Positions 2,840 through 16,915 of a DNA stretch of 27,084 nt are shown here, piece by piece (position 1 is the first letter of the stretch; every line of letters begins with the position of its first letter). Origin of the DNA: a virus. The position numbers were made by a program, and so were the translations under genes. The stretch covers positions 1 through 27,084 of the IMG/VR virus record IMGVR_UViG_3300048033_001347; one strand, given 5' to 3'. Under the pieces are notes generated by a model. That model ran no database searches. It was given only the letters and a program-made list of their open reading frames with translations, and was not told where the DNA came from.

Positions 2840-3444
2840 GCATTACAACTTATGCGGAGCTGAAATCGGCCATCGCTGACTTTCTATTTGGGCGCACCGA
2901 CTTGGCCGCAGTTTCGGGCACATTCATCTCCATGGCCGAGGCCCGCATCGCGCGTGATCTGCGGCACTGGAAGCAGGAAAAGCGCGTCACCACCAACGTC
3001 GACGAGCAGTATGAAAACCTGCCGACCGACTGGATCCGCATCGACAATGTAAGCCACGCCGCTGGCGGCTTGATCTCGTCGATCAGCGCCAGTGAAATGG
3101 AGGCCAAGCGGGCTGCGAGCACCACCGCAGGCAAGCCGCGCTATATGCGAATTTCGGCAAACCAGATTGAGTTCTACCCGGCACCCGATCAGACATATGA
3201 AATTAAGATGGATTACATGGCCAAGATACCGGCTCTGACTGACGCCGCGCCATCAAACTGGCTGCTCGAGTATGCGCCTGACGTGTTGCTCTATGGCGCG
3301 CTGATGCAGTCCGCGCCATACCTTGGTGAGGATGCCCGCGTCGCAGTTTGGGGTGGAATGTACCAGTCAGGGATTGAGGCTCTTAATTCCGAAAGCAAAT
3401 CCGCCACCGTTGCCGGTCCACTTAAAATGGGGATACCTCGATAA
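2836..3444 (+). CDS. Head-tail adaptor (connector) protein
   Basis: A 202-residue protein with a GTG start overlapping the previous stop (GTGA). The sequence follows the adaptor pattern seen below portal rings in SU10- and P22-like phages. It begins with a helical N-terminus (TYAELKSAIADFLFGRTDL), then FISMAEARIARDLR. The motif NLPTDWIRIDNV comes next, followed by a strand region with YMRISANQIEFYPAPDQTYEIKM-like features and a C-terminal helical segment (LLEYAPDVLLYGALMQSAPY). Such proteins bind the portal and provide the platform for the tail. Synteny (after capsid, before fibre) agrees. The last base of its stop codon is the first base of the next gene's ATG. Confidence 0.82.
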   Translation: MSITTYAELKSAIADFLFGRTDLAAVSGTFISMAEARIARDLRHWKQEKRVTTNVDEQYENLPTDWIRIDNVSHAAGGLISSISASEMEAKRAASTTAGKPRYMRISANQIEFYPAPDQTYEIKMDYMAKIPALTDAAPSNWLLEYAPDVLLYGALMQSAPYLGEDARVAVWGGMYQSGIEALNSESKSATVAGPLKMGIPR

Positions 3445-6400
3445 TGTCAGAAACCACTTGGACCCAAGACGCCGGAATGAGCTCGCCCACTGAGGCGGAC
3501 AATGTAGAAAACTATTCCGAGCAGGCCGAGGCATCGAAAGACGCCGCCGCGGCATCCGCCACGGCAGCCGCCACCAGCGCGACGTCTGCATCCGGCTCCG
3601 CGTCCACGGCGTCCACAAAAGCAGCAGAGGCTGCGGCTTCCGCAACTGCGTCCGCATCTTCAGCCACGCAGTCGGCTTCTAGTGCCACGTCTGCGGCATC
3701 TTCGGCAACCACTGCTGGAACAGCTCAGACCGCAGCCGAAACCGCGAAGACCGGCGCTCAAACCGCACAGGCTGCCGCAGAGACAGCAAAGGCCGCGGCC
3801 GAGACTGCTCAGACCGCCGCAGAAACCGCGGAGACCAACGCGGAAACCTCAGAAACCAACGCATCCACCAGCGCCACCGCCGCTGCCACGTCAGCCACAG
3901 CGGCCGCTGGATCTGCAACGTCGGCCGCAACATCCGCGACTAACGCCGCCACCAGCGCCACGGCGTCTGAAACATCTAAAGTCGCCGCAGTGGCAGCTCA
4001 AGCCGCCGCCGAGACAGCTAAGACTGGCGCGGAGACGGCGCAGACTGCTGCGGAGACTGCTGAGACCAACGCGGAAACCGCGGAGAGCAACGCCTCGGCC
4101 AGCGCAACTGCCGCAGCCGCTTCAGCAACTGCTGCCTCAAGCAGCGCGTCTGGCGCGTCAACTTCTGCAACCGAAGCCGCCAGTTCTGCGACCGCTGCCT
4201 CTGGCTCCGCCACGGCGGCATCCGGGTCAGCGTCCACCGCAGCCTCAGAGGCTACCGCCGCAGCCGGATCTGCTACCGCAGCGTCAGCTTCAGCGTCGTC
4301 AGCGAGTGCGGCACAGACCGCTGCTGAGACAGCCGAGACAAACGCCGAGACAGCCGAGACTGGCGCACAAGCCGCGCAAACAGCGGCTGAGACGGCTGAA
4401 GCTAACGCGGAGACCGCGGAGACCAATGCAGCGGCGTCCGCTACGGCAGCTTCTGGCTCTGCCTCCGCAGCCGCTTCATCCGCGACTGCCGCCGCCGGTT
4501 CGGCCACCGCAGCCGCCGGATCGGCCAGCGCCGCATCGACATCTGCGTCGGACGCCGCAACGGCTCTCGATGAGTTCACAGACCTGTACCTTGGCACAAA
4601 GGGCAGCGACCCCACTCTCGACAATGATGGCAACGCCCTACAAACTGGCGCGCTCTATCATAATAACTCAGACGACCTGATAAAATTTTATAACGGCAGC
4701 GCGTGGGTCGCGGCATACGCGACGCTCTCCGGCGCGCTGATCGGCACAAACAACTTGTCCGACGTGGCCAGTGTCTCCGCCGCCCGCATAAATCTTGGCC
4801 TCGGAGCCTCGCAGAGCCCATCGTTCAACAACGTGACTGTGCAGCAAGACCCGACAACCAGCTTGCAGCTGGCGACAAAACAGTACGTCGACACGATTGC
4901 GGCGGCGGGCCTACACTATCACGACCCGGTACGCGTTGAGGCCCCCTCAGCGCTCACTGTGACGTACAATAACGGATCGAGCGGCGTGGGCGCCACTCTG
5001 ACCAATGCGGGAACACAGGCCGCTCTTGCGATTGACGGCATCACGCTACAAGCGGCTGACCGCGTTTTGATCTACACTCAAGCGGACGCCACACAGAATG
5101 GCGTATATACAGTGACCAATGTGGGATCTGGCAGCACCAACTGGGTGATGACGCGGTCCACGGACACCGACAGCTATGCTCCGAGCGACCCCGACAGCTT
5201 CGGCGAGGGCGACGCGTTTTTCGTCAAAGAGGGTAACACTGGGGCCGGTGAGCTCTATGTGATGAACGCCTCAGGTGCGATCACGTTTGGCACAACCGAC
5301 ATCACGTTCACTCAGGTGGCCTCGACCGCAGTCTACACCGCCGACGGCGGCCTCAACCTGACTGGCACAGTGTTCAGCCACGCTGACACATCGTCTCAGG
5401 CCACGGTAAATAATTCCGGCGGCACAGTGATACAAGACGTCACTCTGGACACATACGGCCACGTCACTGGCCTGACGTCACACGCCCTGACAGCATCTGA
5501 CGTGGGGGCCGCGACTTCGGCCCAAGGTGCTCTGGCTGACAGCGCCGTGCAGCTCAACGACACTCCGACATTCGGCACCACTACAGTCAACGGCAACGTC
5601 GTCGTCACCGGCACAGTCGATGGGCGTGATGTCGCCGCAGACGGCACAAAGCTGGACGGCATCGAGGCTGGCGCGAAAGACGACCAGACGATCACTGCGG
5701 GCTCCGGCCTGTCAGGTGGCGGCACCGGAAACGTCACCCTGAGCCACGCAGACACGAGCAGCGTCTCGAGCAGCGACAACAGCGGCAACACGTTTATTCA
5801 AGATTTGACGTTTGACACATACGGACACGTCACTGCGGTCGGCACCGGGTCGGTGTCGGTCGGCAATGGCACGCTGACTGTGCAGGGCACTGGCGCCTTG
5901 GGCGGATCTGGCACGTTCAGCGCAAATCAGAGCTCTGATGCCACGATCAGCATCAGTCACGACGACACGTCGTCTCAGGGCAGCGTCAACAACTCCGGCG
6001 CGACAGTCATCCAAGACGTAACGCTCGACGGCTATGGCCACGTCACGGCTCTGGGCTCGCACACTCTGACACTGGCAAATCTGGGCTACACTGGCGCGAC
6101 CAACGCCAATTACATCACTAACAATAACCAGCTTACCAATGGCGCTGGCTACATCACGTCGTCTGGCAGTATTACTGGCAACGCTGGGTCTGTTGACGGC
6201 TACAGCGTGTCCACCACGCGAAATGCTGCAAACACCATTCCGGTTCGCGACGGCAGCGGCTATCTCAACTTAGGCTGGATCAACACAACGTCCGGTGACA
6301 CGTCAAGCAGCCTGTCGCGCGTTTATGTTGACACTGGCGACAACTACATCCGCAAATGCACACTGGCTCATCTAGCGTCGCAAGGCGGCTTCGCAGGCGA

Positions 6401-6797
6401 CATCACCAACGTCTCCGCTGGCACAAACCTCACCGGGGGCGGGTCAAGCGGCTCTGTCACACTCAACGTCACGGCGAGCCCGACGTTCACGACAGTGACC
6501 GCCACCACATTCAACACCACGTCTGACCGCAACACCAAGACGGACATCACACCGATCTCGGACGCGGTGAGCAAGGTGCAGCAATTAGGCGGCTACAGCT
6601 TCACGTTCAAAGACAGTGGCGAAAAGTCGTCAGGTGTGATAGCACAGGAAGTGCAGGCGGTGCTGCCAGAGCTTGTGCAGGAGGGTGGCGAGGGTCACTT
6701 GACTGTGCAGTACGGCAACATGGTGGGCCTCTTGATCGAGGCAATCAAAGAGCAACAGGCGCAGATCGACGCGCTGACGGCAAAACTTAACGGCTAA
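3444..6797 (+). CDS. Long tail fibre with Ala/Ser/Thr repeats and C-terminal S74 self-cleaving chaperone
   Basis: A 1117-residue fibre. Residues 1-30 are a short head-binding segment. Residues about 30-375 are an Ala/Ser/Thr repeat region with recurring AAETAETNAETAE-type units, predicted to be a trimeric coiled or fibrous shaft. Residues 380-1000 are Gly/Thr/Asn-rich beta-structured, with a KLDGIEAGAKDDQ element near 733. Three copies of NNSG-TVIQDVTLD-YGHVT lie near 655, 776 and 848. The C-terminus is an intramolecular chaperone of the S74 family: SDRNTKTDITPI, then SGVIAQEVQAVLPE, then a terminal coiled coil. The Ser-Lys pair expected for autocleavage is Ser1027 and Lys1032, so the mature fibre should be about 1026 residues. 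Cleavage in this phage is inferred from the family. It lies between the adaptor and small tip genes. Confidence 0.92.
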   Translation: MSETTWTQDAGMSSPTEADNVENYSEQAEASKDAAAASATAAATSATSASGSASTASTKAAEAAASATASASSATQSASSATSAASSATTAGTAQTAAETAKTGAQTAQAAAETAKAAAETAQTAAETAETNAETSETNASTSATAAATSATAAAGSATSAATSATNAATSATASETSKVAAVAAQAAAETAKTGAETAQTAAETAETNAETAESNASASATAAAASATAASSSASGASTSATEAASSATAASGSATAASGSASTAASEATAAAGSATAASASASSASAAQTAAETAETNAETAETGAQAAQTAAETAEANAETAETNAAASATAASGSASAAASSATAAAGSATAAAGSASAASTSASDAATALDEFTDLYLGTKGSDPTLDNDGNALQTGALYHNNSDDLIKFYNGSAWVAAYATLSGALIGTNNLSDVASVSAARINLGLGASQSPSFNNVTVQQDPTTSLQLATKQYVDTIAAAGLHYHDPVRVEAPSALTVTYNNGSSGVGATLTNAGTQAALAIDGITLQAADRVLIYTQADATQNGVYTVTNVGSGSTNWVMTRSTDTDSYAPSDPDSFGEGDAFFVKEGNTGAGELYVMNASGAITFGTTDITFTQVASTAVYTADGGLNLTGTVFSHADTSSQATVNNSGGTVIQDVTLDTYGHVTGLTSHALTASDVGAATSAQGALADSAVQLNDTPTFGTTTVNGNVVVTGTVDGRDVAADGTKLDGIEAGAKDDQTITAGSGLSGGGTGNVTLSHADTSSVSSSDNSGNTFIQDLTFDTYGHVTAVGTGSVSVGNGTLTVQGTGALGGSGTFSANQSSDATISISHDDTSSQGSVNNSGATVIQDVTLDGYGHVTALGSHTLTLANLGYTGATNANYITNNNQLTNGAGYITSSGSITGNAGSVDGYSVSTTRNAANTIPVRDGSGYLNLGWINTTSGDTSSSLSRVYVDTGDNYIRKCTLAHLASQGGFAGDITNVSAGTNLTGGGSSGSVTLNVTASPTFTTVTATTFNTTSDRNTKTDITPISDAVSKVQQLGGYSFTFKDSGEKSSGVIAQEVQAVLPELVQEGGEGHLTVQYGNMVGLLIEAIKEQQAQIDALTAKLNG
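3534..4566 (+). repeat. Imperfect tandem repeats encoding the Ala/Ser/Thr fibre shaft
   Basis: About 1 kb of degenerate repeats built from units such as GCAGAGACTGCTGAGACC and GCCACCGCAGCCTCCGGC. They encode alternating A-E-T-A-x-T-x-A and S-A-T-A-A blocks. Because most codons are G-C-N or related, the complement also lacks stops, which creates long false reading frames on both strands. Repeats of this sort can change length by slippage or recombination, altering shaft length. Confidence 0.85.
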
Positions 6798-6818: not shown

Positions 6819-7100
6819 ATGGCTATACAGGTAAACGGCACACAGGTGATCGGCAACTCGCGAGAGTTGACCAACATCACGTCTGTTGACGCGACCACAG
6901 TCGCGGCAATCAGCGCTGCGGGTGTCGGTGGCGGCGCAACAGGGGGTGGCTCAGATGAGATATTCTTTGAGAACGGGCAGACTGTCACCACTAACTACAC
7001 AATTACCAACGGCAAGAACGCTATGAGTGCTGGCCCTATCGCCATTAACTCTGGTGTGACTGTGACTGTTGGCTCTGGAGAGGTTTGGATCGTACTATGA
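6819..7100 (+). CDS. Small fibre/tip protein
   Basis: A 93-residue protein with ribosome site AGAGGAGAACGAGG before the ATG. The N-terminus (MAIQVNGTQVIGNSRELTNI) is the short head motif common to many phage tail-fibre proteins. A helix-like segment ending in a Gly-rich hinge (AGVGGGATGGGSDE) follows. The C-terminus is a compact beta strand module (NAMSAGPIAINSGVTVTV, then GEVWIVL), a tip motif that recurs in marine phage fibres. It probably attaches to the fibre or tail and forms a short knob. The stop overlaps the next ATG (ATGA). Receptor binding is inferred from family and position. Confidence 0.75.
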   Translation: MAIQVNGTQVIGNSRELTNITSVDATTVAAISAAGVGGGATGGGSDEIFFENGQTVTTNYTITNGKNAMSAGPIAINSGVTVTVGSGEVWIVL

Positions 7101-7456
7101 CAAAGATTACACTTTCGAGTAACGCTAGTGGGACGGGCAATGTTAACTTTGCTGCGCCTAATACCAACAGCGCGATTACTGTGACACTTCCAACAGCTAA
7201 TGTTGATATGGATAGCCTTGGGCCTAGTACAGACTATGCGGCGGTTGGTACATACCTCATCGCCCGTGCTACAGGTAGTTTTACTCTTAACCCGGGAGAT
7301 TTGTTTTCTGCGGCCACTTACAACCTATTTCCAGCCAACGCTAGTGGGACAGACGTAGGCACCGCAATAAGCTCCGGCTCTTGGCGCACTATGGGGCTGA
7401 AGCCGTACACCTTTAGCAGCGGCCCCGGGACTACATTGTTTGTGAGGGTTTCATAA
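7097..7456 (+). CDS. Putative receptor-binding tip protein, cassette 1
   Basis: A 119-residue protein. The ATG at 7097 overlaps the previous stop (ATGA) and is preferred over the earlier in-frame GTG-like start at 7085. It is rich in Ser, Thr, Gly and Asn and has no membrane segment or cysteine. It contains MDSLGPSTDYAAVGTY and SGSWRTMGL and ends in TLFVRVS. The same three landmarks occur in the protein at 7876 (DSLGPSTTAGAVGTY, SGTWRCMGM, TVFVRIS), so the two are paralogues. It is immediately followed by a chaperone-like gene. Its role as an exchangeable fibre tip is inferred from this arrangement and the tail-fibre context. Third-position bases are less GC-rich than in the head genes. Confidence 0.72.
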   Translation: MTKITLSSNASGTGNVNFAAPNTNSAITVTLPTANVDMDSLGPSTDYAAVGTYLIARATGSFTLNPGDLFSAATYNLFPANASGTDVGTAISSGSWRTMGLKPYTFSSGPGTTLFVRVS

Positions 7457-7875
7457 TGAGCATTACGATTACAGAGGTGCGCAACGCACGTTCTATGAAC
7501 GCAGACAACACACTTATAGATGTGGAAATAAACCACCCACAACTAGGATGGATACCATACGGCCTTGACCCAGCTGACACTGACATGACAATCGACAACG
7601 CTCAGGTGTTGAACATTATCGGGTCAGACTTTGCGCCATATGTCGCCCCTACTCAGGAAGAGCTAGACGCACAAGCGGCGGCATCTGTACGGGCACAACG
7701 CGATGCTTTGCTGGTAGAGGTAGACGCTATGGTGTCAAATCCTCTGCGCTGGGCTGATATGACGACTGAGCAGCAAGCGGCGTGGTCACAGTACCGCACA
7801 GATTTGCTTAATGTGCCACAACAAGATGGCTTCCCACATGGCGTGACTTGGCCTACAAAGCCGGAGGGCAACTAA
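7456..7875 (+). CDS. Tail fibre assembly chaperone-like protein, cassette 1
   Basis: A 139-residue protein whose ATG shares a base with the previous stop. The N-terminal half carries VEINHPQLGWIPYGLDPAD and a short acidic region. The C-terminal half has the conserved tail-assembly-chaperone ending: RAQRDALL, a helix with LRWADMTTEQQAAWSQYR, then LLNV and GFPHGVTWPTKP. Proteins with this ending (R-x-x-RD-x-LL ... YR-x-x-L ... W-P-x-K-P) are encoded directly downstream of fibre or tip genes. They are thought to fold or oligomerise the preceding protein. It is paralogous along its full length to the protein at 8160. Confidence 0.82.
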   Translation: MSITITEVRNARSMNADNTLIDVEINHPQLGWIPYGLDPADTDMTIDNAQVLNIIGSDFAPYVAPTQEELDAQAAASVRAQRDALLVEVDAMVSNPLRWADMTTEQQAAWSQYRTDLLNVPQQDGFPHGVTWPTKPEGN

Positions 7876-8160
7876 ATGAGTAAGGTAATTGTAGATACGC
7901 TGGAAAACACAGCGGGTACTTTCACGAGTGCTATTGATAGTCTTGGCCCTAGTACAACTGCAGGTGCTGTTGGCACTTATGGTTTTTTTGGTTCAAACGT
8001 CATCATTACTGAAGGCTCGACAACCGCTGCTTCAAATCTGCAGTTTGCGGGTTCACCACGGCTCTCTGCTGGCAATGCGCCCAGTGGCACTTGGCGGTGT
8101 ATGGGTATGACTTCTCGAACAGGATACTCTGACGCTACCGTATTTGTGAGGATTTCATAA
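7876..8160 (+). CDS. Putative receptor-binding tip protein, cassette 2
   Basis: A 94-residue paralogue of the 7097 protein, starting immediately after the chaperone stop. Shared landmarks are DSLGPST near the start, AVGTY, SG-WR-MG and a C-terminal FVRIS. The middle segment (FFGSNVIITEGSTTAASNLQFAG) differs and is shorter, as expected if the exposed surface diverges while the framework is kept. Its stop TAA shares its last base with the ATG of the next gene. Receptor binding is inferred. The N-terminal MSKVIVDTLENT resembles a common short head motif of small phage fibre proteins. Confidence 0.72.
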   Translation: MSKVIVDTLENTAGTFTSAIDSLGPSTTAGAVGTYGFFGSNVIITEGSTTAASNLQFAGSPRLSAGNAPSGTWRCMGMTSRTGYSDATVFVRIS

Positions 8161-8582
8161 TGACTGTAACAATCACACAAATCCGCAATGCGGCATCCCT
8201 CCAAGCTGACAACCTCCGCATGGATGTAGAGATTAACCATCCACAGCACGGCTGGATACCTTACACTCTTGATCCGTCTGACACTGACACCACGATTGAC
8301 AATGATGCAGTCATGGCTCTGATCGGCACAGACTTCGCAGCATATGTTCCGCCCACACAGGCAGAGCTAGATGCAGCCGCAGCCGCAGGGGTTCGTGGTC
8401 AGCGTGACAACATCTTAGCCACAGTAGTTGATCCTATCGTGTCCAACCCTTTGCGCTGGGCAGAGATGAGCGAAGCACAGCAAGCAGAGTGGTCAGCATA
8501 TCGCACCGCCCTGTTGAACATTACAACACAGGCTGGGTTCCCACACAATGTGACGTGGCCCACTAAGCCCGGAGGAGCATAA
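8160..8582 (+). CDS. Tail fibre assembly chaperone-like protein, cassette 2
   Basis: A 140-residue paralogue of the 7456 protein. Both have an M-x-I-T-I-T-x-I/V-R-N-A start, then VEINHPQHGWIPYTLDPSD, a short acidic region, PPTQAELDAAAAAGVR, RDNIL, NPLRWAEM and GFPHNVTWPTKPG at the C-terminus. It should act on the tip protein encoded just upstream, with which it is translationally coupled. The level of similarity, even through non-conserved loops, points to a tandem duplication of a two-gene unit rather than independent acquisition. Confidence 0.82.
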   Translation: MTVTITQIRNAASLQADNLRMDVEINHPQHGWIPYTLDPSDTDTTIDNDAVMALIGTDFAAYVPPTQAELDAAAAAGVRGQRDNILATVVDPIVSNPLRWAEMSEAQQAEWSAYRTALLNITTQAGFPHNVTWPTKPGGA

Positions 8583-8584
8583 CT

Positions 8585-9178
8585 ATGGCTAGTACAATAC
8601 GAGGCGATGACAACTTTGATAGCGCTGGACCGTTTGGTCACTGGACACCTTTATCGGAAGTGACTTTAGGTGGCTCTGCGGTAAGCGCAATAGATATTAC
8701 GCTACCTTCTGGGTATGATAAGCACCGGCTAGATTTTGTTCTCCCTACGCAACCAAGTGGCGCATCTGGCACTGCACTTCTTCTTAACATGTTAAGCTCT
8801 GGCGGCAGCGCTCAGTCATCTACTTATACCGTTATGTGGGCAGGTTATCCGGCCAACAGAAATCAAAACGATGGTGTAACTGACATGTACTTTGCTCCTG
8901 ACGTAGGGGACGCTATTAATGCAAATCAAGATACCTACATTCATGGGGTAATGGAAATTCTTGATGCTAATAGTTCTTCTCTTTACACTCGCTTTCTTTG
9001 CCATATGGGTGCGGCCCTTGAATATGACGGTAGTGCAAATGTTTTGCTCGGCCAAGGAACGCAGACAACAGGCACTGCTTCAACTACATCAAAATTTAGG
9101 TTCAAGTGGCAGAATGGTTCTAACTTCGCTACTGGCTCTGAATTTTACTATCGACTTTACGGCCACTCATACTCATAG
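8585..9178 (+). CDS. Putative receptor-binding tip protein, cassette 3
   Basis: A 197-residue Ser/Gly/Tyr-rich beta-type protein starting 2 bases after the previous stop; the upstream GGAGGAGCATAACT gives a good ribosome site. It is unrelated in sequence to the 7097/7876 tip proteins. Instead it has a jelly-roll-like alternation of strands (VSAIDITLPSGYDKHRLDFV, YTVMWAGYPANRNQN, FRFKWQNGSNFATGSEFYYRL). This resembles phage tip domains seen at fibre or appendage ends, but I cannot name the family. It is followed by a third, shorter assembly-chaperone-like gene. Composition is more AT-rich than the head genes, compatible with recent exchange. Confidence 0.68.
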   Translation: MASTIRGDDNFDSAGPFGHWTPLSEVTLGGSAVSAIDITLPSGYDKHRLDFVLPTQPSGASGTALLLNMLSSGGSAQSSTYTVMWAGYPANRNQNDGVTDMYFAPDVGDAINANQDTYIHGVMEILDANSSSLYTRFLCHMGAALEYDGSANVLLGQGTQTTGTASTTSKFRFKWQNGSNFATGSEFYYRLYGHSYS

Positions 9179-9187
9179 GAGATAATC

Positions 9188-9421
9188 ATGGCAAAAGTAT
9201 TACTTGATGGCGTGGTCGTGGACTTAGATGTGCCTGTATCACCAATCACGGAAAGAGATGTTCGCAATAAGCGTGATAACCTCATAGCAGCAACAGACGT
9301 ATGGGCGCTATCAGATCGCACGATGACCGCAGAGCAGACAGCATACCGCCAAGCACTGCGTGACATCACAGATCAAGCTGGCTTCCCAACCAACATCACA
9401 TGGCCCACTAAGCCTGAGTAA
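9188..9421 (+). CDS. Short tail fibre assembly chaperone-like protein, cassette 3
   Basis: A 77-residue protein preceded by TAGGAGATAATC. It lacks the long N-terminal half of the 7456 and 8160 proteins but keeps the chaperone ending: RDVRNKRDNLIAATDVW, MTAEQTAYRQALRDIT, and GFPTNITWPTKPE. The C-terminal motif R-x-x-RD-x-L ... YR-x-x-LRD-x-x-x-Q-x-GFP-x-x-x-x-WP-x-KP is the recognisable part. It closes the fibre module; a perfect hairpin follows 6 bases after its stop. It presumably serves the 8585 protein. Confidence 0.8.
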   Translation: MAKVLLDGVVVDLDVPVSPITERDVRNKRDNLIAATDVWALSDRTMTAEQTAYRQALRDITDQAGFPTNITWPTKPE

Positions 9422-9427
9422 AAACAC

Positions 9428-9457
9428 GCCACCTACGCCGACTTATGCGTAGGTGGC
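9428..9457 (+). terminator. Hairpin closing the fibre module
   Basis: GCCACCTACGC (9428-9438) and GCGTAGGTGGC (9447-9457) form a perfect 11-bp stem with an 8-base loop, right after the last fibre-module stop. No U tract follows. It is a probable terminator or RNA-processing site separating two structural operons. A TATAAT sits 20 bases downstream. Confidence 0.7.
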
Positions 9458-9469
9458 ACCACGCGGATA

Positions 9470-9490
9470 ATGCGTGTATAATCACCGCAT
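9470..9490 (+). promoter_or_regulatory. TATAAT framed by a small inverted repeat
   Basis: TATAAT (9477-9482) is a perfect consensus -10 box. It is flanked by ATGCGTG (9470-9476) and CACCGCAT (9483-9490), which pair apart from one extra C. I see no good -35 at the expected distance, so either a weak -35 or an activator would be needed. It lies 34 bases upstream of the 9517 gene and just after the terminator-like hairpin, where an operon promoter is expected. Confidence 0.45.
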
Positions 9491-9516: not shown

Positions 9517-9864
9517 ATGGCAACCACCACAAATTACAGCTTCACGCTGCCGACCGTTGGTGGCAGCCAAGACCAGTGGGGCACGGATCTCAATAATAAC
9601 TGGACCAGCCTTGACACCACACTCTTTGGTCTAGCGCCAAAGGCCAGCCCGACGTTCACTGGCACCGCGACAATACCCACCGCCTCTATCACAACGGCCA
9701 CGATCACAACGGCAAACGCCACCACAGTCGACTTCGGCGACTGGACGATCACCGAGGATGCTGGCGTGCTCAAGTTCGCCACCGGCGGCGTCAATAAGAT
9801 GTCGCTCGACGCGAGCGGCAACCTCACAGTCACTGGGAACGTCAACACAGCCGGGACAATCTAA
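9517..9864 (+). CDS. Tail-fibre-like structural protein
   Basis: A 115-residue protein with ribosome site AGAGGACTGATAGA. The N-terminus (TTNYSFTLPTVGGSQDQWGT, then LNNNWTSLDT) is a module common to many phage tail and baseplate-attached proteins. The middle has ASPTFTGTATIP and a Thr/Ala/Ile-rich segment of imperfect ITTATITTANATT repeats. The C-terminus has a short beta repeat (GGVNKMSLDASGNLTVTGNV), common in fibre shafts. No tip domain follows, so it is probably a short attachment or shaft protein. It is the first gene after the TATAAT box, and its stop abuts the next ATG. Confidence 0.72.
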   Translation: MATTTNYSFTLPTVGGSQDQWGTDLNNNWTSLDTTLFGLAPKASPTFTGTATIPTASITTATITTANATTVDFGDWTITEDAGVLKFATGGVNKMSLDASGNLTVTGNVNTAGTI

Positions 9865-11343
9865 ATGCCGCTCATTCCCCTCAAGATCCCCGCGGGGATG
9901 TTCCGAAACGGCACCGAATATGAGGCCACTGGCCGCTGGCGTGACGGGAACCTCGTCCGCTGGCTTGGCTCGTCACTGCGCCCGGTGGGCGGGTGGCGCG
10001 AGCGCATCACTAATGCCATAGCCGAGACAGCGCGCAGCATGCACACATGGCAGGACAGCAACGCCTCGCGATGGGCTGCACTGGCGACGTACAATAAGTT
10101 GTACGTCTCAAGCGCAGCCGGCACCGTCTACGACATCACGCCCGCGGGCTTCCAGACCGGCGACGACCTTGCGACAGTCAAGACGGGCTATGGCTACAGC
10201 ACCTATGGCACGTCGTTTTACGGCACAGAGCGCCCGGACACTGGAAACTATAGCGAAGTGACCACATGGTCCCTCGACAATTTTGGCAGCTTCCTTGTCG
10301 CGTGCAGTGTGTACGACGGCAAAGTGTACCAGTGGGACGGCATCACGTCCAACCCGGCCACAGTGGTCGCAAATGCGCCAACAGATAACCTCGGCCTCAT
10401 TGTCACCGAGGAGCGCTTCCTGTTCTGCCTCGGCGGCGGCGGAGATCCGCGGACCGTGCAGTGGAGCGATCAGGAGGACATCACCACATGGACCCCGGCC
10501 AGCACCAATCAGGCGGGCGCCCAAATCTTACAGACTTCCGGGCAGATTATGGCGGCCCAGCGCGGACGCGGCCAGACGCTGATCTTCACAGACTTAGACA
10601 TGCACCGGATGACCTACGTCGGCGCGCCTTTTGTGTACTCGACTGAGAAGGTGTCAGAGGCGTGCGGCCTCGCGTCCCGCAAGGCGGTATCAACTGTGGA
10701 CGTCGGAACATTCTGGATGGGCCACAGGTCATTCTTCTTTTATGACGGCTCAAATGTGCAGGAGCTGGCTTGTGACGTGAAGGACTACGTCTTCGGCGAC
10801 ATGAACCGCGCGCAAATTTCCAAGAGCTGGAGCCTATCGCTTGGTCAGCAGGGCGAGATCTGGTGGTTTTACTGTAGTGAGGGGTCCAACGAGATCGACC
10901 GCTACGTCACCTATGACTACAAGCAGGGCTACTGGACTACCGGCAGCCTGTCACGCACATGCGGCGCTGACCGGGGCGTGTTTAAGCACCCACTGATGAT
11001 GTCTGTGGGCGGCACGATGTACGAGCACGAGGTCGGCCTCAATTACGAGGGCGAGACTGTGTTCGCAGAGACTGGCCCGTTTGCCATTGGTGTCGGAGAC
11101 GAGATTGTGCGCGTCACGCGCCTGATACCGGACGAGCTCACCCAGGGCGACGTGTCAGCGACGTTCAAGACCCGCTTCTTCCCGAATGGCGACGAGACTT
11201 CACACGGCCCGTATGACATGGCCAATCCGACTTCGGTACGCTTCAGTGGCCGTCAGGCGCGTATGCGCGTTGAGGGCGCACGTCTAGCAGACTGGCGCGT
11301 CGGGATTATGCGAGTTGAGGCCATGCCCGGTGGCCGCAGATGA
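9865..11343 (+). CDS. Tail nozzle / DNA stabilisation-like protein
   Basis: A 492-residue protein beginning immediately after the previous stop. The N-terminus (IPLKIPAGMFRNGTEYEATG, RWRDGNLVRW, RPVGGWRER) is a recognisable signature of a podovirus tail protein family. The bulk is made of repeated strand units (NKLYVSSAAGTVYDITPAG, FLVACSVYDGKVYQWDG, FLFCLGGGGDPRTVQWSDQED, FWMGHRSFFFYDGSNVQEL), read as a beta-propeller. Similar proteins act as the P22-type packaged-DNA stabiliser or the SU10-type nozzle, sealing the tail below the adaptor. I cannot distinguish these two from sequence. Its last bases overlap the next ATG by 4. Confidence 0.75.
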   Translation: MPLIPLKIPAGMFRNGTEYEATGRWRDGNLVRWLGSSLRPVGGWRERITNAIAETARSMHTWQDSNASRWAALATYNKLYVSSAAGTVYDITPAGFQTGDDLATVKTGYGYSTYGTSFYGTERPDTGNYSEVTTWSLDNFGSFLVACSVYDGKVYQWDGITSNPATVVANAPTDNLGLIVTEERFLFCLGGGGDPRTVQWSDQEDITTWTPASTNQAGAQILQTSGQIMAAQRGRGQTLIFTDLDMHRMTYVGAPFVYSTEKVSEACGLASRKAVSTVDVGTFWMGHRSFFFYDGSNVQELACDVKDYVFGDMNRAQISKSWSLSLGQQGEIWWFYCSEGSNEIDRYVTYDYKQGYWTTGSLSRTCGADRGVFKHPLMMSVGGTMYEHEVGLNYEGETVFAETGPFAIGVGDEIVRVTRLIPDELTQGDVSATFKTRFFPNGDETSHGPYDMANPTSVRFSGRQARMRVEGARLADWRVGIMRVEAMPGGRR

Positions 11344-11993
11344 CGGCGCCGATCCCGCCGCATGTCGGGCCCGATATATTCGAGTGGGCGCGCAGCTTCT
11401 CAACATGGACCCGTCGGGCGCTGTCTCAGCTCATCTTTAAGCCGGCAGGCGCCGCAGCGATTGAAAACGGCACTTTACTCTGGGACGATGCGGCCGGGTA
11501 TCCGGTGGTGTCAAAAGGTGGAGAATGGCGTCAGATTGTGCTCGAGGATGGCAAATATGCTGGTGCTGTGACCGCCGACCAAACGGCAGCTTCAATTAAC
11601 ACAGCGTACACTTTAACGTACACCTCAAGCACGGCTGACGGCATCACAAATGGCACTCCGGCTTCGCGCCTTGTGTTTGATGAGGCTGGCCAGTACATGG
11701 TCAGTTTTTCTGCGCAAATTGCGTCCACGTCCAGCTCAACTGTAAACTTTTGGTTTTGGCCTCGCGTCAACGGCACAGACGTATCTGGCTCAACTATGAA
11801 GAACGCTTTGCATCAAAATGGTTCGGTTTTGGTGGTGTCCCGCTCTGCCATATTTGAGTTTAGTGCCGGAGATTATTTGGAGGCCATGTGGGCTGTTGAT
11901 GGCAACAACGGCTTCTTGGATGCAACTGCGGCGACGGCGTTTGCACCCGCAGCACCGGCGTCCACTATTGCAATAACGAGGCTTCATGGGTGA
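11340..11993 (+). CDS. Tail tip protein with N-terminal attachment segment and C-terminal jelly-roll
   Basis: A 217-residue protein overlapping the previous gene by 4 bases (ATGA). Residues 1-65 (PPHVGPDIFEWARSFSTWTR, then GTLLWDDAAGYPVVSKGGEW) look like a tail attachment segment. Residues 75-217 have the strand order of a C1q/TNF-like jelly-roll: YTLTYTSSTADGI, RLVFDEAGQYMVSFSAQI, STVNFWFWPRVNGTDV, SRSAIFEFSAGDYLEAMW, ending in STIAITRLHG. Such domains form trimeric tips. The first 190 bases are clearly more GC-rich than the rest, suggesting that the tip domain was exchanged onto a conserved base. Receptor recognition is inferred. Confidence 0.7.
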   Translation: MTAPIPPHVGPDIFEWARSFSTWTRRALSQLIFKPAGAAAIENGTLLWDDAAGYPVVSKGGEWRQIVLEDGKYAGAVTADQTAASINTAYTLTYTSSTADGITNGTPASRLVFDEAGQYMVSFSAQIASTSSSTVNFWFWPRVNGTDVSGSTMKNALHQNGSVLVVSRSAIFEFSAGDYLEAMWAVDGNNGFLDATAATAFAPAAPASTIAITRLHG

Positions 11994-13363: not shown

Positions 13364-14578
13364 ATGACTTACTTGCTACAACAATTTGACATTGACGAGC
13401 TCAAGCGTATGGGAATGGACACTACTGGTCTCGCGGTGGACTATCCGGCCACAGACGAGCAGCGCCGCGCGCTGGGCATAGAAAATGATGTCGACCCCGG
13501 AGCGCTTCCTGATCCAGACGTCACACCGCAAAGCGTGGCCGCGGATTTAGCTGGCGCAGTCCCAACGGCAGCCCCGGTCAGCGCCCCGAAGATGACGCCA
13601 GACGCAGTGAGCGCAGCCGTGCAGGCCGTTCCCGCGGCCTCCGCAGTAACTCAGGAGCAGCTATCAGCGACAGCGGCGCAGGGCGGCAGCTCGTTCATGG
13701 ACGCAATTTTCGGGCCCAAAGAAGAAGCTGACCAATTTTCCAACCTCAACCGTCAGCAGCGGATGATGCTGGCTTTTGGGGCGATCAAAGACGCCGGCTT
13801 CGCATTGCAGGGCAAGGAGGGCAACGCCTTCGGAAGCACTCTCAAGGCGATCAACGACCAGATCGACATGGGGCGCAAGGCGAAGGCGGCGGAGGCTAAT
13901 CGTCAGGCGCTGCAAAGCGTTATGGGTGACGATATTGCGGGCGGAGACCCGCTGGCACGCATCCAGCGACTTCTGAATTTAGGCATGCTTTATCCAGACA
14001 TGGCGCCGGCAATCGCGCTACAGGTGAAGGAGATACGGGATCAGATGCAGGCAACCGAGGGCGCAGTAAGCAGCTCCTCTCAAGCAGCCACTCAGCTTGA
14101 AGACGTTAATGCTTTAATCAATATGATTGACGAAGATCCAACTTTAACCACAGGCATAATGGGTTCACTCCTTAGCTACATCCCCGGCACTGGCGCGAAT
14201 ATTGCTGAAGGCTTGGCCACTACCTTGAGGTCCAATCTTGCGCTCCAAGCGCTGAAAGACCTAAAGGCAACAGGCGCGACAATGGGTGCACTTAATGCAA
14301 CAGAATTTAACGCGCTGGAAACTGAATTAACCCAGCTTGATCTGTCTAAGGGGCCGCAGACAGCCAAAAGAGCCTTGAAGCGTATTCAGACAAAGTATCA
14401 AAACCTGATCGCTGATGCGTTTAGAGACGCTGAGGAGCAGGCGGCCGCTGGAAACCCTAATGGGCAAAGGGCGCTTGATGGGTTAAATCGGATATTTGGG
14501 GGCAAGCCAGCGTGGACCGAAAACGCGGGTCCAGTGGTCCCGTCAGGCGACACCTCAGATCCATTGAACATTTTATAA
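13364..14578 (+). CDS. Internal virion / ejection protein 2
   Basis: A 404-residue protein. Residues 1-45 are charged (FDIDELKRMGMDTTGL). Residues about 50-115 are Ala/Pro/Val-rich low complexity. From about 120 the protein is helical: RQQRMMLAFGAIKDAGFALQ, then a Gly/Ala stretch, a helix ending near MGRKAKAAEANRQALQSV, and a long C-terminal coiled-coil region (NALETELTQLDLSKGPQTAK). It sits 21 bases after one probable virion protein and 12 before another, in the usual slot for internal proteins. Packaging in the head or tail and ejection with the DNA are inferred. I recognise no enzyme. Confidence 0.65.
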   Translation: MTYLLQQFDIDELKRMGMDTTGLAVDYPATDEQRRALGIENDVDPGALPDPDVTPQSVAADLAGAVPTAAPVSAPKMTPDAVSAAVQAVPAASAVTQEQLSATAAQGGSSFMDAIFGPKEEADQFSNLNRQQRMMLAFGAIKDAGFALQGKEGNAFGSTLKAINDQIDMGRKAKAAEANRQALQSVMGDDIAGGDPLARIQRLLNLGMLYPDMAPAIALQVKEIRDQMQATEGAVSSSSQAATQLEDVNALINMIDEDPTLTTGIMGSLLSYIPGTGANIAEGLATTLRSNLALQALKDLKATGATMGALNATEFNALETELTQLDLSKGPQTAKRALKRIQTKYQNLIADAFRDAEEQAAAGNPNGQRALDGLNRIFGGKPAWTENAGPVVPSGDTSDPLNIL

Positions 14579-14590
14579 TAGGGTACAAGC

Positions 14591-16915
14591 ATGGCTTCCA
14601 TACAAGAAATCCGCAATAAATACCCTCAGTACGATGAAATGAGCGACGAGGATCTTGCGCGGGCGCTGCACGGCAAATTTTACTCTGACATGGACTTTGG
14701 CGATTTTTCAGAAAAGATCGGACTTACTCCTGCTCAAGAGGCTCCGACGATCCCCGAAGGCTCCACGCTGCTGAAGCAATACCCCGACGGCGGCTACATC
14801 ACGCAGAACCGCAAGACGCGGCAGATGAATTATGTGAACCCAGAGGGCGCATATGTGTCCGCGGATCAGGGAACCATAACCAGCATCATGCGCGAGGGCG
14901 GAGATTTCAAAAAAGTTGTGGGAGGTGAAATGTCCCGCGATGTCGTAGGTGAGGGTTACACAGCGCTGGCCAGCATGTTTGGCAAAGGTCTTCCGTTTGC
15001 TCGCGGTTATGTTGAACCAGCGATGGCTAAGGCCAGCGAGTTCGGTAGCCAGTTCACTGGAAACGCACCCATCAGCGAAGAGACTATCCGCGCAGCCATA
15101 GGGTCGCAGGAGGCAGAGCTTCCCGCCTTGACCACTACCGGCCGCCTCGCGACTGGTGTGTCCACCGGCTTGGCTTCTGGCGCCGACCGCCTAATCAACG
15201 CGCCAACGCGCATTGGACGTGCCACTCAATCTGTTGGATATGGCGCAGGCATCGGTGGCGCTGAAGGCGCTGTTGCGGGCTACGGTGAGGGTGGATTGCC
15301 GGCAGCCGCAGAGCAGGCACAAACTGGCGCCCAATTTGGAGGAATTTTTGGCGCGGTGGCGCCTGTTGTCGGATCAATCATCGGAGGCGTGAGCCGCCTT
15401 AGAGCTGAGATGCCGTTTCGGGCAGACATTAACAAGATTGGCGCTAAGGGCGACGCAAAGAAGTTGATAAAAGACGCCGTGGAGGCTGACGGCGTAGGCG
15501 CCGCCGCCGCGGCCAACACGCCTTATGGAAACATAGCAACGCTTGGCCCTAATATGTCAAACCTGCTTGACGTCGTGGCGAATACTCCGGGCAAGGGTGC
15601 GGCAGTGGTACGCTCAAACCTCAATGAGACATCTCTGGCCGCGTCGCGCGACTTGTCAACCACACTTGATGACGTGCTTGGGCCTGTGACTGACGGAAAA
15701 ATTGGCCAGAAGGCCGACATCATGGCGGACACCGCAGAGGCTCGTCGTGAGCTGTACGGCAGCGCGTACACCTCCCAGATAACTCCCGGCGAAGACGCCT
15801 CTGACACTGTGCTCGATCTGTACACCCGCGTCTCTCCTGATGACTTGACCGGAGCCACCACGCTGATGCGTGAGGCAGGCGGAAAATTCGACTACATGGT
15901 GCCGACGCGCGTCAGCGAAGAGCAGGCGAACAAGATAATGAAGCAGGCGGACGGCGTAAATATAACTTACGACGTCGACGGAAACTACATCGCCATGCGG
16001 ACGCCGACAGTCGAGACGCTGGACTACGTCACGCGCCGGCTGCACAGCCGCGCCCAAGAGCTCAAGCGATCTGGCGACATCGAGGGCTACCGCTCCAAGA
16101 CTGCGCTGGCCATCCAGATGCGCAACGCGCTTGATGAAGTCAGTCCAGACTACGCAGCGGCGCGCGCAGCGGGCAAAGATGCCATCGACCAGAAGATCGC
16201 GGCAGACCTTGGCAACGACTTGCTGAGCCCGTCTGTGACGCGAGAAGAGGTGCAGATCGCCTTAGACGTCATGGGCCCGACTGAGCTGAAGCAAGTCAGA
16301 ACAGCTTTGAGAAACCGCCTAGATGAGTATGCGGCAAACGCGAAGGTCAACCCGTCCAAGCGCACCGACGCCGAAGTGGTCGAGGCTCTGGCGCAACTGA
16401 AGGCAATGAATACTCGAGCCGTGGCCACAAAGATGCAAATGGTGCTTGGCGATGTCGGATTTGAGAAGATGTCGAATAAGATCCGGGAAGTCAGCGACGC
16501 GATGATTATGGCAGCCTCTGTCGCTCAAAACTCTAAAACAGCAATACGTCAGGCAGTGCAGAAGCGCTTTGAGGAGTTAATTACTCCGACGATGGGAGAG
16601 CGCATTGGCCAGCAAGGTCTGCTGGGCGCGCCTACGGCAATGGCGTCTGACCTTTTACTCTCTGGAGGCGGTCAGGCGGATCGCATTCGCGCAGCTCAAG
16701 AGCAGCTCGCACCGATCCTGTCCCGCCGCATGACGCCGGACGATTTGATGCGTCAGGCTCAAGCTATGGAGCGCGCAGCTCCGGGCATACAGGCCGCCAG
16801 AGAGACTGGGGAAGCGACAAGGGCTAATGTCACCAGCGGACTGCTGGGCGCGGGTATGTCAGCGCAGTCAGCCGGCCTGCCATCCCCATATGAGATGCTG
16901 ACCGGCCCCCGCTAA
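14591..16915 (+). CDS. Large internal virion / ejection protein 3
   Basis: A 774-residue protein, the last in the structural operon. The N-terminus (ASIQEIRNKYPQYDEMSDED, then LARALHGKFYSDM) is a short motif often found at the start of podovirus internal proteins and some phage peptidoglycan-degrading ones. Residues about 195-275 are Gly/Ala-rich with repeated GYGAGIGGAEGAVAGYGEGG-type segments, which could insert in a membrane. From about 280 the protein is mostly helical and Ala/Arg/Glu-rich. No lytic transglycosylase catalytic motif was identified. It probably forms part of the channel or core ejected into the host. The stop is 3 bases before the end of the convergent minus-strand gene. 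Confidence 0.7.
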   Translation: MASIQEIRNKYPQYDEMSDEDLARALHGKFYSDMDFGDFSEKIGLTPAQEAPTIPEGSTLLKQYPDGGYITQNRKTRQMNYVNPEGAYVSADQGTITSIMREGGDFKKVVGGEMSRDVVGEGYTALASMFGKGLPFARGYVEPAMAKASEFGSQFTGNAPISEETIRAAIGSQEAELPALTTTGRLATGVSTGLASGADRLINAPTRIGRATQSVGYGAGIGGAEGAVAGYGEGGLPAAAEQAQTGAQFGGIFGAVAPVVGSIIGGVSRLRAEMPFRADINKIGAKGDAKKLIKDAVEADGVGAAAAANTPYGNIATLGPNMSNLLDVVANTPGKGAAVVRSNLNETSLAASRDLSTTLDDVLGPVTDGKIGQKADIMADTAEARRELYGSAYTSQITPGEDASDTVLDLYTRVSPDDLTGATTLMREAGGKFDYMVPTRVSEEQANKIMKQADGVNITYDVDGNYIAMRTPTVETLDYVTRRLHSRAQELKRSGDIEGYRSKTALAIQMRNALDEVSPDYAAARAAGKDAIDQKIAADLGNDLLSPSVTREEVQIALDVMGPTELKQVRTALRNRLDEYAANAKVNPSKRTDAEVVEALAQLKAMNTRAVATKMQMVLGDVGFEKMSNKIREVSDAMIMAASVAQNSKTAIRQAVQKRFEELITPTMGERIGQQGLLGAPTAMASDLLLSGGGQADRIRAAQEQLAPILSRRMTPDDLMRQAQAMERAAPGIQAARETGEATRANVTSGLLGAGMSAQSAGLPSPYEMLTGPR

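Follow-up and report, generated by a model that had tools for sequence, protein, structure and literature searches.

The locus described here belongs to a marine podovirus and carries cassettes that each consist of a small tip gene followed by the gene for a chaperone. In all likelihood, it is a stack of receptor-tip cassettes that recombine at their conserved parts, with the N-terminal half of each chaperone fitting the class of its tip. The observations behind this reading include the following: the choice of chaperone depends on tip class, and the unit exchanged between phages is the tip together with the chaperone N-terminal half, with the PF16778 C-terminal half (about 46-60 aa) staying in place. 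We refer to the whole 27,084-nucleotide stretch of viral DNA that was analysed as the window.

Layout of the array

The array consists of six intact, closely packed open reading frames on the plus strand, which form three tip/chaperone pairs back to back (Table 1). These are the three pairs of the original prediction, and all three chaperones prove to be PF16778 proteins. In pairs 1 and 2, the stop codon of the tip gene overlaps the start codon of the chaperone gene (TAATG), so that translation of the two is probably coupled. An assembly artefact can be dismissed, since an independently assembled, near-identical contig (L115) shows the same order of pairs 1 and 2 between identical flanking genes.

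The backbone neighbour of the array is a long tail fibre. Between them lies a 93-aa tip-like protein that has no chaperone of its own; its C-terminus matches phrog_34255 (E 1.1e-17), and its anchor is found fused to 39 different tips at other loci. The intergenic stretch at the far end of the array contains a hairpin (9426-9459) that is terminator-like on the minus strand and a TATAAT promoter-like site oriented toward the next gene.

Table 1 Features of the tip/chaperone array, in window coordinates.
Feature	Position	Strand	Description
Long tail fibre	3444..6797	+	1117 aa; C-terminal S74 intramolecular chaperone (PF13884, E 6.8e-15)
Tip-like protein	6819..7100	+	93 aa; N-terminal anchor MAIQVNGTQVIGNSR and short C-terminal domain also present at tail-fibre ends
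tip1	7097-7456	+	119 aa; anchor MTKITLSSNASGTGNVNFAAPNTNS and GSWRxMG...RVS tip domain
ch1	7456-7875	+	139 aa; tip-class-specific N-terminal half and PF16778 C-terminal half (7678-7866)
tip2	7876-8160	+	94 aa; anchor MSKVIVDTLENTAGTFTSAI and GTWRxMG...RIS tip domain
Exchanged tract	7945..8410	+	tip-2 domain and N-terminal half of ch2; recurs on contig L078
ch2	8160-8582	+	140 aa; same class as ch1; PF16778 at 8385-8570
14-bp direct repeat, first copy	8556..8569	+	TGGCCCACTAAGCC (WPTKP codons); left end of pair-3 cassette
tip3	8585-9178	+	197 aa; anchor MASTIRGDDNFDS; C-terminal end YYRLYGHSYS; class unrelated to tips 1 and 2
ch3	9188-9421	+	77 aa; short N-terminus MAKVLLDGVVVD and PF16778 (9257-9418)
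14-bp direct repeat, second copy	9401..9414	+	TGGCCCACTAAGCC; right end of pair-3 cassette
Intergenic stretch	9426..9482	.	conserved, closes the array; 65-77% DNA identity to relatives

Tip and chaperone proteins

As receptor-binding tips, the three small proteins would be trimers on the virion that bind the host receptor. They had been predicted to be small beta-type proteins, each with its own chaperone, and structure prediction agrees with this for tip2: strands predominate in its AlphaFold model (pLDDT 80, about 92 in the core). The model of tip3 is all-beta with 10 strands, at low confidence (pLDDT 57). In Foldseek searches, the tip2 model gave 23 viral fold matches at E<=0.001, the named ones being mostly tail fibres, and no fold match among solved structures in the PDB; tip3 has weak lectin-like matches to solved structures (TM <0.5).

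Tip1 and tip2 are 39% identical over 92 aa (E 4e-9), and their shared domain forms the terminal domain of long tail fibres in other phages. The tip profile matches the C-terminus of the Pa193 gp47 fibre (residues 887-961, E 9e-9), which is in the deposited sequence and unbuilt in the structure, and tip2 matches the C-termini of phrog_33642 and phrog_4900. Pair 3 combines a short chaperone with an unrelated tip, as anticipated; tip3 has no convincing sequence match to tips 1 or 2. Its relatives, which were retrieved via ch3, are 31-40% identical and each is followed by a ch3-type chaperone, and an exact-pattern search for tip3 in viral contigs matched the N-terminal anchor alone.

In a Pfam scan, ch1, ch2, and ch3 score 56.9, 45.1, and 63.9 bits against PF16778 (phage tail assembly chaperone; curated cut-off 26.6 bits), the sole family returned at E<=1; the Tfa/Caudo_TAP family gave no match. 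A chaperone gene lies directly downstream of the fibre or tip gene in all three pairs here and in 261 pairs in the collected loci. Ch1 and ch2 are 67% identical over 139 aa (E 3e-68), and ch3 aligns with ch2 in the C-terminal part alone (48% over 60 aa). Ch1 matches phrog_4628 (E 2e-27), and ch2 has 83% DNA identity to gp42 of Roseobacter phage CRP-227. Matches to the PHROG tail fibre assembly families fall mainly in the C-terminal part of the chaperones, and 2kz6, the sole credible solved relative of the chaperone profile, matches the C-terminus only. By analogy, these PF16778 proteins would assist folding or trimerisation of the upstream tip. In some relatives (L012 and L034) the tip is not accompanied by a PF16778 gene, so a chaperone is not always needed.

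The dN/dS values of the chaperones, about 0.1-0.2, indicate purifying selection. They also bear on an alternative that we consider unlikely, in which the virion keeps the chaperones as terminal adhesin caps, tip and chaperone together bind the receptor, and receptor contact is what makes the chaperone N-terminus vary. Mu Tfa and S16 gp38 do stay bound (PMC10579305, PMC7289586), and here the chaperone N-terminus is swapped together with the tip. A receptor-contacting protein is expected to be variable, however, and dN/dS is about 0.1 for chaperones against about 0.4 for tips; in the class with the GTWRxMG...RIS motif (RIS class), mean column identity is 72% for chaperones and 23% for tips. In addition, the Pam3 chaperone gp25 is missing from virions (PMC9608196).

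Coupling of chaperones to tip classes

Among 178 dereplicated tip/chaperone pairs, every RIS-class tip (102/102) precedes a chaperone of N-type 0, and 102 of 103 N-type 0 chaperones follow a RIS-class tip; the single genuine exception is L164, in which such a chaperone comes after an unrelated tip. Outside this block, 35 of 37 same-tip-class pairs agree in their chaperone N-type, compared to a mean of 1.6 and a maximum of 8 in the shuffle control.

Inside the RIS class, similarity between tips correlates with similarity between chaperone N-termini (partial r 0.19, p 0.0005), and the C-termini show no such relation (r -0.003, p 0.54). This within-class correlation is weak, and linkage could yield it because the chaperone N-terminal half adjoins the tip gene.

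Could linkage account for the entire association, with recombination dragging along the adjoining 5' end and no functional fit between the two proteins? The adjacency and the weak within-class correlation are what it would predict, but we give it a low probability. Coupling between classes is near absolute across cobaviruses, Autographiviridae, and marine contigs. Within the chaperone, the correlation with the tip is highest at residues 26-50 rather than at the extreme N-terminus, and the tract shared by the window and contig L078 ends at domain boundaries. Moreover, in the Pbunavirus PB1 this tip domain is still followed by a related chaperone N-terminus, joined to a C-terminus without a PF16778 match.

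Exchange boundaries and changes in pair number

Tips are swapped between phages, as had been proposed. At the pair-3 position in seven relatives, identity is 16% for the tip and 16% for the chaperone N-terminus, 85% (aa) and 82% (DNA) for the chaperone C-terminus, and 76% (DNA) for the next gene. The C-terminus of ch3 is 83-91% identical in relatives whose N-termini are unrelated. Across tip classes, the accompanying claim that the chaperone framework is retained holds for the PF16778 C-terminus and fails for the N-terminal half, which is exchanged along with the tip.

In pair 2, the exchanged tract begins just past the tip anchor and stops where PF16778 begins. Identity between the window and L078 is 80-92% up to chaperone codon 80 and 47-67% thereafter, with the tract ends falling on domain boundaries; outside 7945-8410, the two have no detectable homology.

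Pair 3 differs from a near-identical sister genome by one clean gain/loss event: the sister has a single copy of the 14-bp repeat and no pair 3, and the gap falls exactly between the two copies. Across relatives there is no fixed gene set, in line with the original prediction; pair number is 3, 2, 1, or 0 and varies even between near-identical genomes. Such free variation might mean that one tip is used and the remaining pairs are spare or decaying copies, a store for recombination. This is improbable, given that the six reading frames are intact and tightly packed, with stops and starts overlapping, and that ch1 and ch2, compared with the orthologues in L115, are both under purifying selection (dN/dS about 0.10 and 0.13).

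Pairs 1 and 2 had been called duplicates in both genes, which is correct as paralogy (67% and 39% aa identity) and not as recent local duplication. In a tree of 102 rows, forcing ch1 and ch2 to group costs 113 log-likelihood units (p-AU 0.013; the bootstrap is unsettled), and the nearest relatives of ch2 are in other phages. Recent tandem duplication was dropped as a candidate, and the two pairs probably did not form by simple tandem duplication. A search for a prophage source gave two contigs labelled as Flavobacterium and Euryarchaeota MAGs, both probably binned phage, and no usable host; no plasmid matches were found.

It is very hard to credit that a diversity-generating retroelement or an invertase switch programmes the variation of the tips: conserved anchors do bear hypervariable C-termini, but the variants are of unequal length and diverge over large tracts, every gene is on the same strand, and the 27-kb record, a genome fragment, contains neither a reverse transcriptase (PF00078) nor a serine recombinase (PF00239).

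A cassette model and its closest precedents

In the cassette model that we favour, each cassette comprises a small tip, made of a short N-terminal anchor and a C-terminal beta domain, followed by a dedicated intermolecular chaperone. By analogy with Pam3 gp24/gp25, the chaperone N-terminal half would contact the tip, recognising its class and initiating its folding, and the PF16778 half would trimerise the complex. Cassettes would be gained, lost, and exchanged via recombination at conserved parts, namely the tip anchor at one end and, at the other, the 3' end of the chaperone gene, which codes for PF16778 and WPTKP. Because recombination would occur at these sites, an incoming tip would bring its fitting chaperone half and reuse the resident trimerisation half. 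One phage may co-produce several tips, and a single virion might carry them as alternatives or side by side, as suggested in the original prediction.

Cassette exchange would explain the ways in which these phages may replace or accumulate host-recognition tips, and the pairing of tip and chaperone would restrict which receptor-binding parts they can trade. The boundaries (anchor / tip + chaperone N-terminus / chaperone C-terminus) provide a testable compatibility rule. In metagenomic phages, unannotated receptor-binding tips could be found directly upstream of PF16778 genes and sorted by chaperone N-type. A broader version, to which we give slightly less than an even chance, is that the PF16778 C-terminus serves universally as a plug for trimerisation and as a landing site for recombination; tips of any kind could then enter with a matching N-terminal half, generating combinatorial co-displayed stacks, and N-type would predict tip class across unrelated phages.

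Pam3 (PMC9608196) has a similar arrangement, a fibre gene (gp24) followed by a two-part chaperone (gp25) whose variable N-terminal beta-sandwich binds the fibre and whose conserved C-terminal helices trimerise. Pam3 has a single pair, whereas the window has three; a sequence search with our chaperone profile did not find gp25, and the passages on Pam3 do not follow, in populations, a joint exchange of tip and chaperone N-terminal half. The marine Alteromonas phages V22 (gp26/gp27) and A5 (gp8/gp9) have in common a fibre with a cognate downstream chaperone, although they are unrelated (PMC7289586, PMC10579305). They carry one pair, however, the chaperone C-terminus is DUF4376 rather than PF16778, and fibre and whole chaperone travel inside a larger module.

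The Pbunavirus fibres Pa193 gp47 and PB1 gp46 end in the tip-1/2 domain, like the window tips, and PB1 gp47, downstream of gp46, has an N-terminal half in common with the chaperones (hhalign E 8e-4). In these phages, in contrast, the tip domain is fused to a 960-aa fibre and the chaperone has no PF16778 match. For the PF16778 family itself (Phage_tail_APC), the defining part is the C-terminal ~60 aa alone, and the tip-specific N-terminal halves lie outside the Pfam model. The cobavirus ICBM2, a Lentibacter phage, is reported to have several tail fibres and three tail assembly chaperones within a variable tail region; a modular exchange unit is not described in the excerpted account (PMC6775973). 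Our analysis recovered three tip/chaperone pairs in ICBM2, with tips that are mostly larger (133-523 aa) and of other classes than those in the window.

Organisation of the tip/chaperone array

The capsid and adaptor proteins of the window (an IMG/VR virus record, 27,084 bp) match SU10-type proteins (PF17236, PF24175), and its P22-type stabilisation protein, encoded beyond the array, is 57% identical to the Octadecabacter phage counterpart; together these sequence matches point to what is probably a podovirus of marine Rhodobacterales. The array and a 93-aa tip-like gene are flanked by a 1117-aa fibre and a conserved gene at 9517. The second gene of all three pairs scores above the cut-off for PF16778, a phage tail assembly chaperone family. 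The similarities noted in the original prediction hold: chaperones 1 and 2 are 67% identical and tips 1 and 2 39% (E 4e-9), and chaperone 3, described there as short, resembles only the C-terminal part of chaperone 2. The stretch that separates the array from the following gene (9426-9482) has a hairpin and a promoter-like TATAAT site that are kept in relatives.

Features of the array and its upstream flank
Feature	Position	Detail
Fibre	3444-6797	1117 aa, S74 intramolecular chaperone
Tip-like gene	6819-7100	93 aa
Pair 1, tip / chaperone	7097-7456 / 7456-7875
Pair 2, tip / chaperone	7876-8160 / 8160-8582
Pair 3, tip / chaperone	8585-9178 / 9188-9421
14-mer copies	8556-8569 and 9401-9414	WPTKP-coding

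The exchanged unit ends inside the chaperone gene

Tips were thought to be swapped on a retained chaperone framework; we find that the tips are indeed swapped and the chaperone C-terminus kept, but that the N-terminus is exchanged as well. Seven relatives were compared at the position of pair 3. By median pairwise identity, the tip and the chaperone N-terminus are each only 16% identical, whereas the last 46 chaperone residues reach 85% (82% in DNA); the junction therefore lies inside the chaperone gene. The intergenic DNA and the next gene are both at 76%. In pair 2, a tract at 7945-8410 is common to the window and L078, a viral contig otherwise without detectable homology to the window; it runs from just past the anchor, the short N-terminal segment of the tip, to the start of PF16778, with identities of 83-95% in the tip, 80-92% in chaperone codons 1-80 and 47-67% beyond them. 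In pair 1, the window differs from the sister genome L115 in the tip and in the chaperone up to about codon 48 (75% aa), later codons being 97% identical. The anchor MAIQVNGT... is found before 39 different tips and MTKITLSSNASGTG... before 12, and the anchor of tip 3, MASTIRGDDNFDS, is joined in L130 to a tip of the RIS class, to which tips 1 and 2 belong.

We built a profile of this class from 83 tips, with the consensus ...GTYxx...SGTWRxMG...TLxVRIS and a mean identity per column of 23%. It matches (E 9e-9) the C-terminal 75 residues of gp47, the tail fibre of Pa193; these residues are in the deposited sequence and unbuilt in the structure. The AlphaFold model of tip 2 (pLDDT 80, core ~92) has 23 matches at E<=0.001 among predicted viral structures, those with names being mostly tail fibres. 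Among 102 carriers of the domain in related loci, 43 are small proteins (<=160 aa), 30 are mid-size and 29 are fibres >400 aa that end in it. Tip 3 forms a separate class with relatives 31-40% identical; its predicted model is all beta, at low confidence.

Tip class and chaperone N-terminus are coupled

We gathered 178 tip/chaperone pairs via the chaperone or the stabilisation protein, not via tip 1 or 2, and dereplicated them at 95% tip identity. One chaperone N-terminal type follows every RIS-class tip (102/102), and such a tip precedes 102 of the 103 chaperones of that type. The sole exception, L164 3865-4651, is real on reading: a chaperone of this type follows a tip that lacks the GTWR...RIS domain. 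Beyond the RIS block, tips of the same class form 37 pairs, and 35 of these have their chaperone N-type in common (shuffled maximum, 8). Within the RIS class, tip similarity follows that of the N-terminal part of the chaperone, with a partial r of 0.19 (p 0.0005) and a peak at chaperone residues 26-50; no correlation was seen with the C-terminus (p 0.54). All these tests remove relatedness and linkage only in part. In Pseudomonas phage PB1 the fibre ends in a RIS-class domain and the next gene, in which PF16778 was not found, has the chaperone N-terminus in common; the coupling thus extends outside marine phages.

The Pam3 gp24-gp25 pair offers a precedent by analogy. Cryo-EM resolves the two proteins as a 3:3 complex: the variable N-terminal beta-sandwich of the chaperone, gp25, wraps around the tip of the fibre, its conserved C-terminal helices trimerise, and virions are without gp25 (PMC9608196). 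Similarly, V22 gp27 is required for an active fibre of which it is no component (PMC7289586). The exchange boundaries are those expected if PF16778 chaperones act as Pam3 gp25 does: the N-terminal half would grip the tip and the PF16778 half would trimerise. The likeness is one of function and layout: a profile search with the chaperones gave 2kz6 only, a C-terminal match, and did not find gp25.

Exchange of fibre and chaperone between unrelated phages is already known (PMC10579305), as is a cobavirus tail region with three chaperones (PMC6775973); tip/chaperone pairs as such are known. A literature search on PF16778 gave no results. As far as the literature searched shows, the compact three-pair array, an exchange unit with its edge within the chaperone gene, and an almost one-to-one match between chaperone N-type and tip class are undescribed. 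That one virion carries several tips is our hypothesis.

Pair number and history

Comparison of the locus across relatives, as proposed earlier, shows that pair number varies. We read the stretch before the stabilisation gene in 28 viral contigs encoding a relative of that protein: there are three pairs in the window, two in L115, one in L013, L014, L017, L030-L032, L035, L037 and others, and no PF16778 gene in L012, L022 and L034. The flanks of L115 are nearly identical to those of the window (gene 6819 and adaptor both 100% aa); tips 1 and 2 are 56% and 49% identical, chaperones 1 and 2 89% and 97%. In L115, which is without pair 3, the sequence passes through chaperone 2 as far as TGGCCCACTAAGCC; the bases that come next are those which, in the window, follow the copy of this 14-mer at chaperone 3's end. 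A single recombination event between the two WPTKP-coding repeats would produce such a junction. Loss in L115 is more likely than gain, because most relatives keep a chaperone-3-like C-terminus at this place.

Purifying selection on the chaperones is strong, with dN/dS about 0.1-0.2. The tips are less constrained: their median is 0.40 against 0.11 for chaperones, and they have the higher value in 11 of 12 comparisons. Pairs 1 and 2 had been called duplicates, and they are similar in both genes; duplication in place fares less well. Past L115, the closest relatives of chaperone 2 lie in other phages (L040, 89% aa; CRP-227, 83% DNA), and an alignment of 138 columns rejects a tree that groups chaperone 1 with chaperone 2 (p-AU 0.013, the bootstrap being unsettled), which makes it more likely that the pairs were brought together.

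Other variable points

The C-terminal S74 chaperone of the long fibre is exchanged too (window 6481-6730 and L115 ~4060-4330, 53% aa), the last codons and everything downstream being identical; on sequence comparison this is a second tip-swap point, separate from the array. L115 6286-6612 and L011 2-178, both from metagenome 3300021378, each cover part of gene 9517, and the two contigs are probably fragments of one genome. The gene 3' of the stabilisation protein (window 11340-11993, L011 1654-2310) is 72% identical overall in near-identical genomes: the first ~70 aa are the same in both, and the C-terminus diverges. It has a weak C1q/TNF-like (BclA_C) match and may be a tail needle whose knob varies. 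At window 13364-16915 and L011 3681-6328, of two large structural or ejection-type genes, one is 57% identical and the other is without detectable similarity, in surroundings 97-99% identical. At the array position, L022 3807-5266 and L023 122-1581 encode a glycine-rich 366-aa tip and then an unrelated 115-aa protein, perhaps a further tip/chaperone class.
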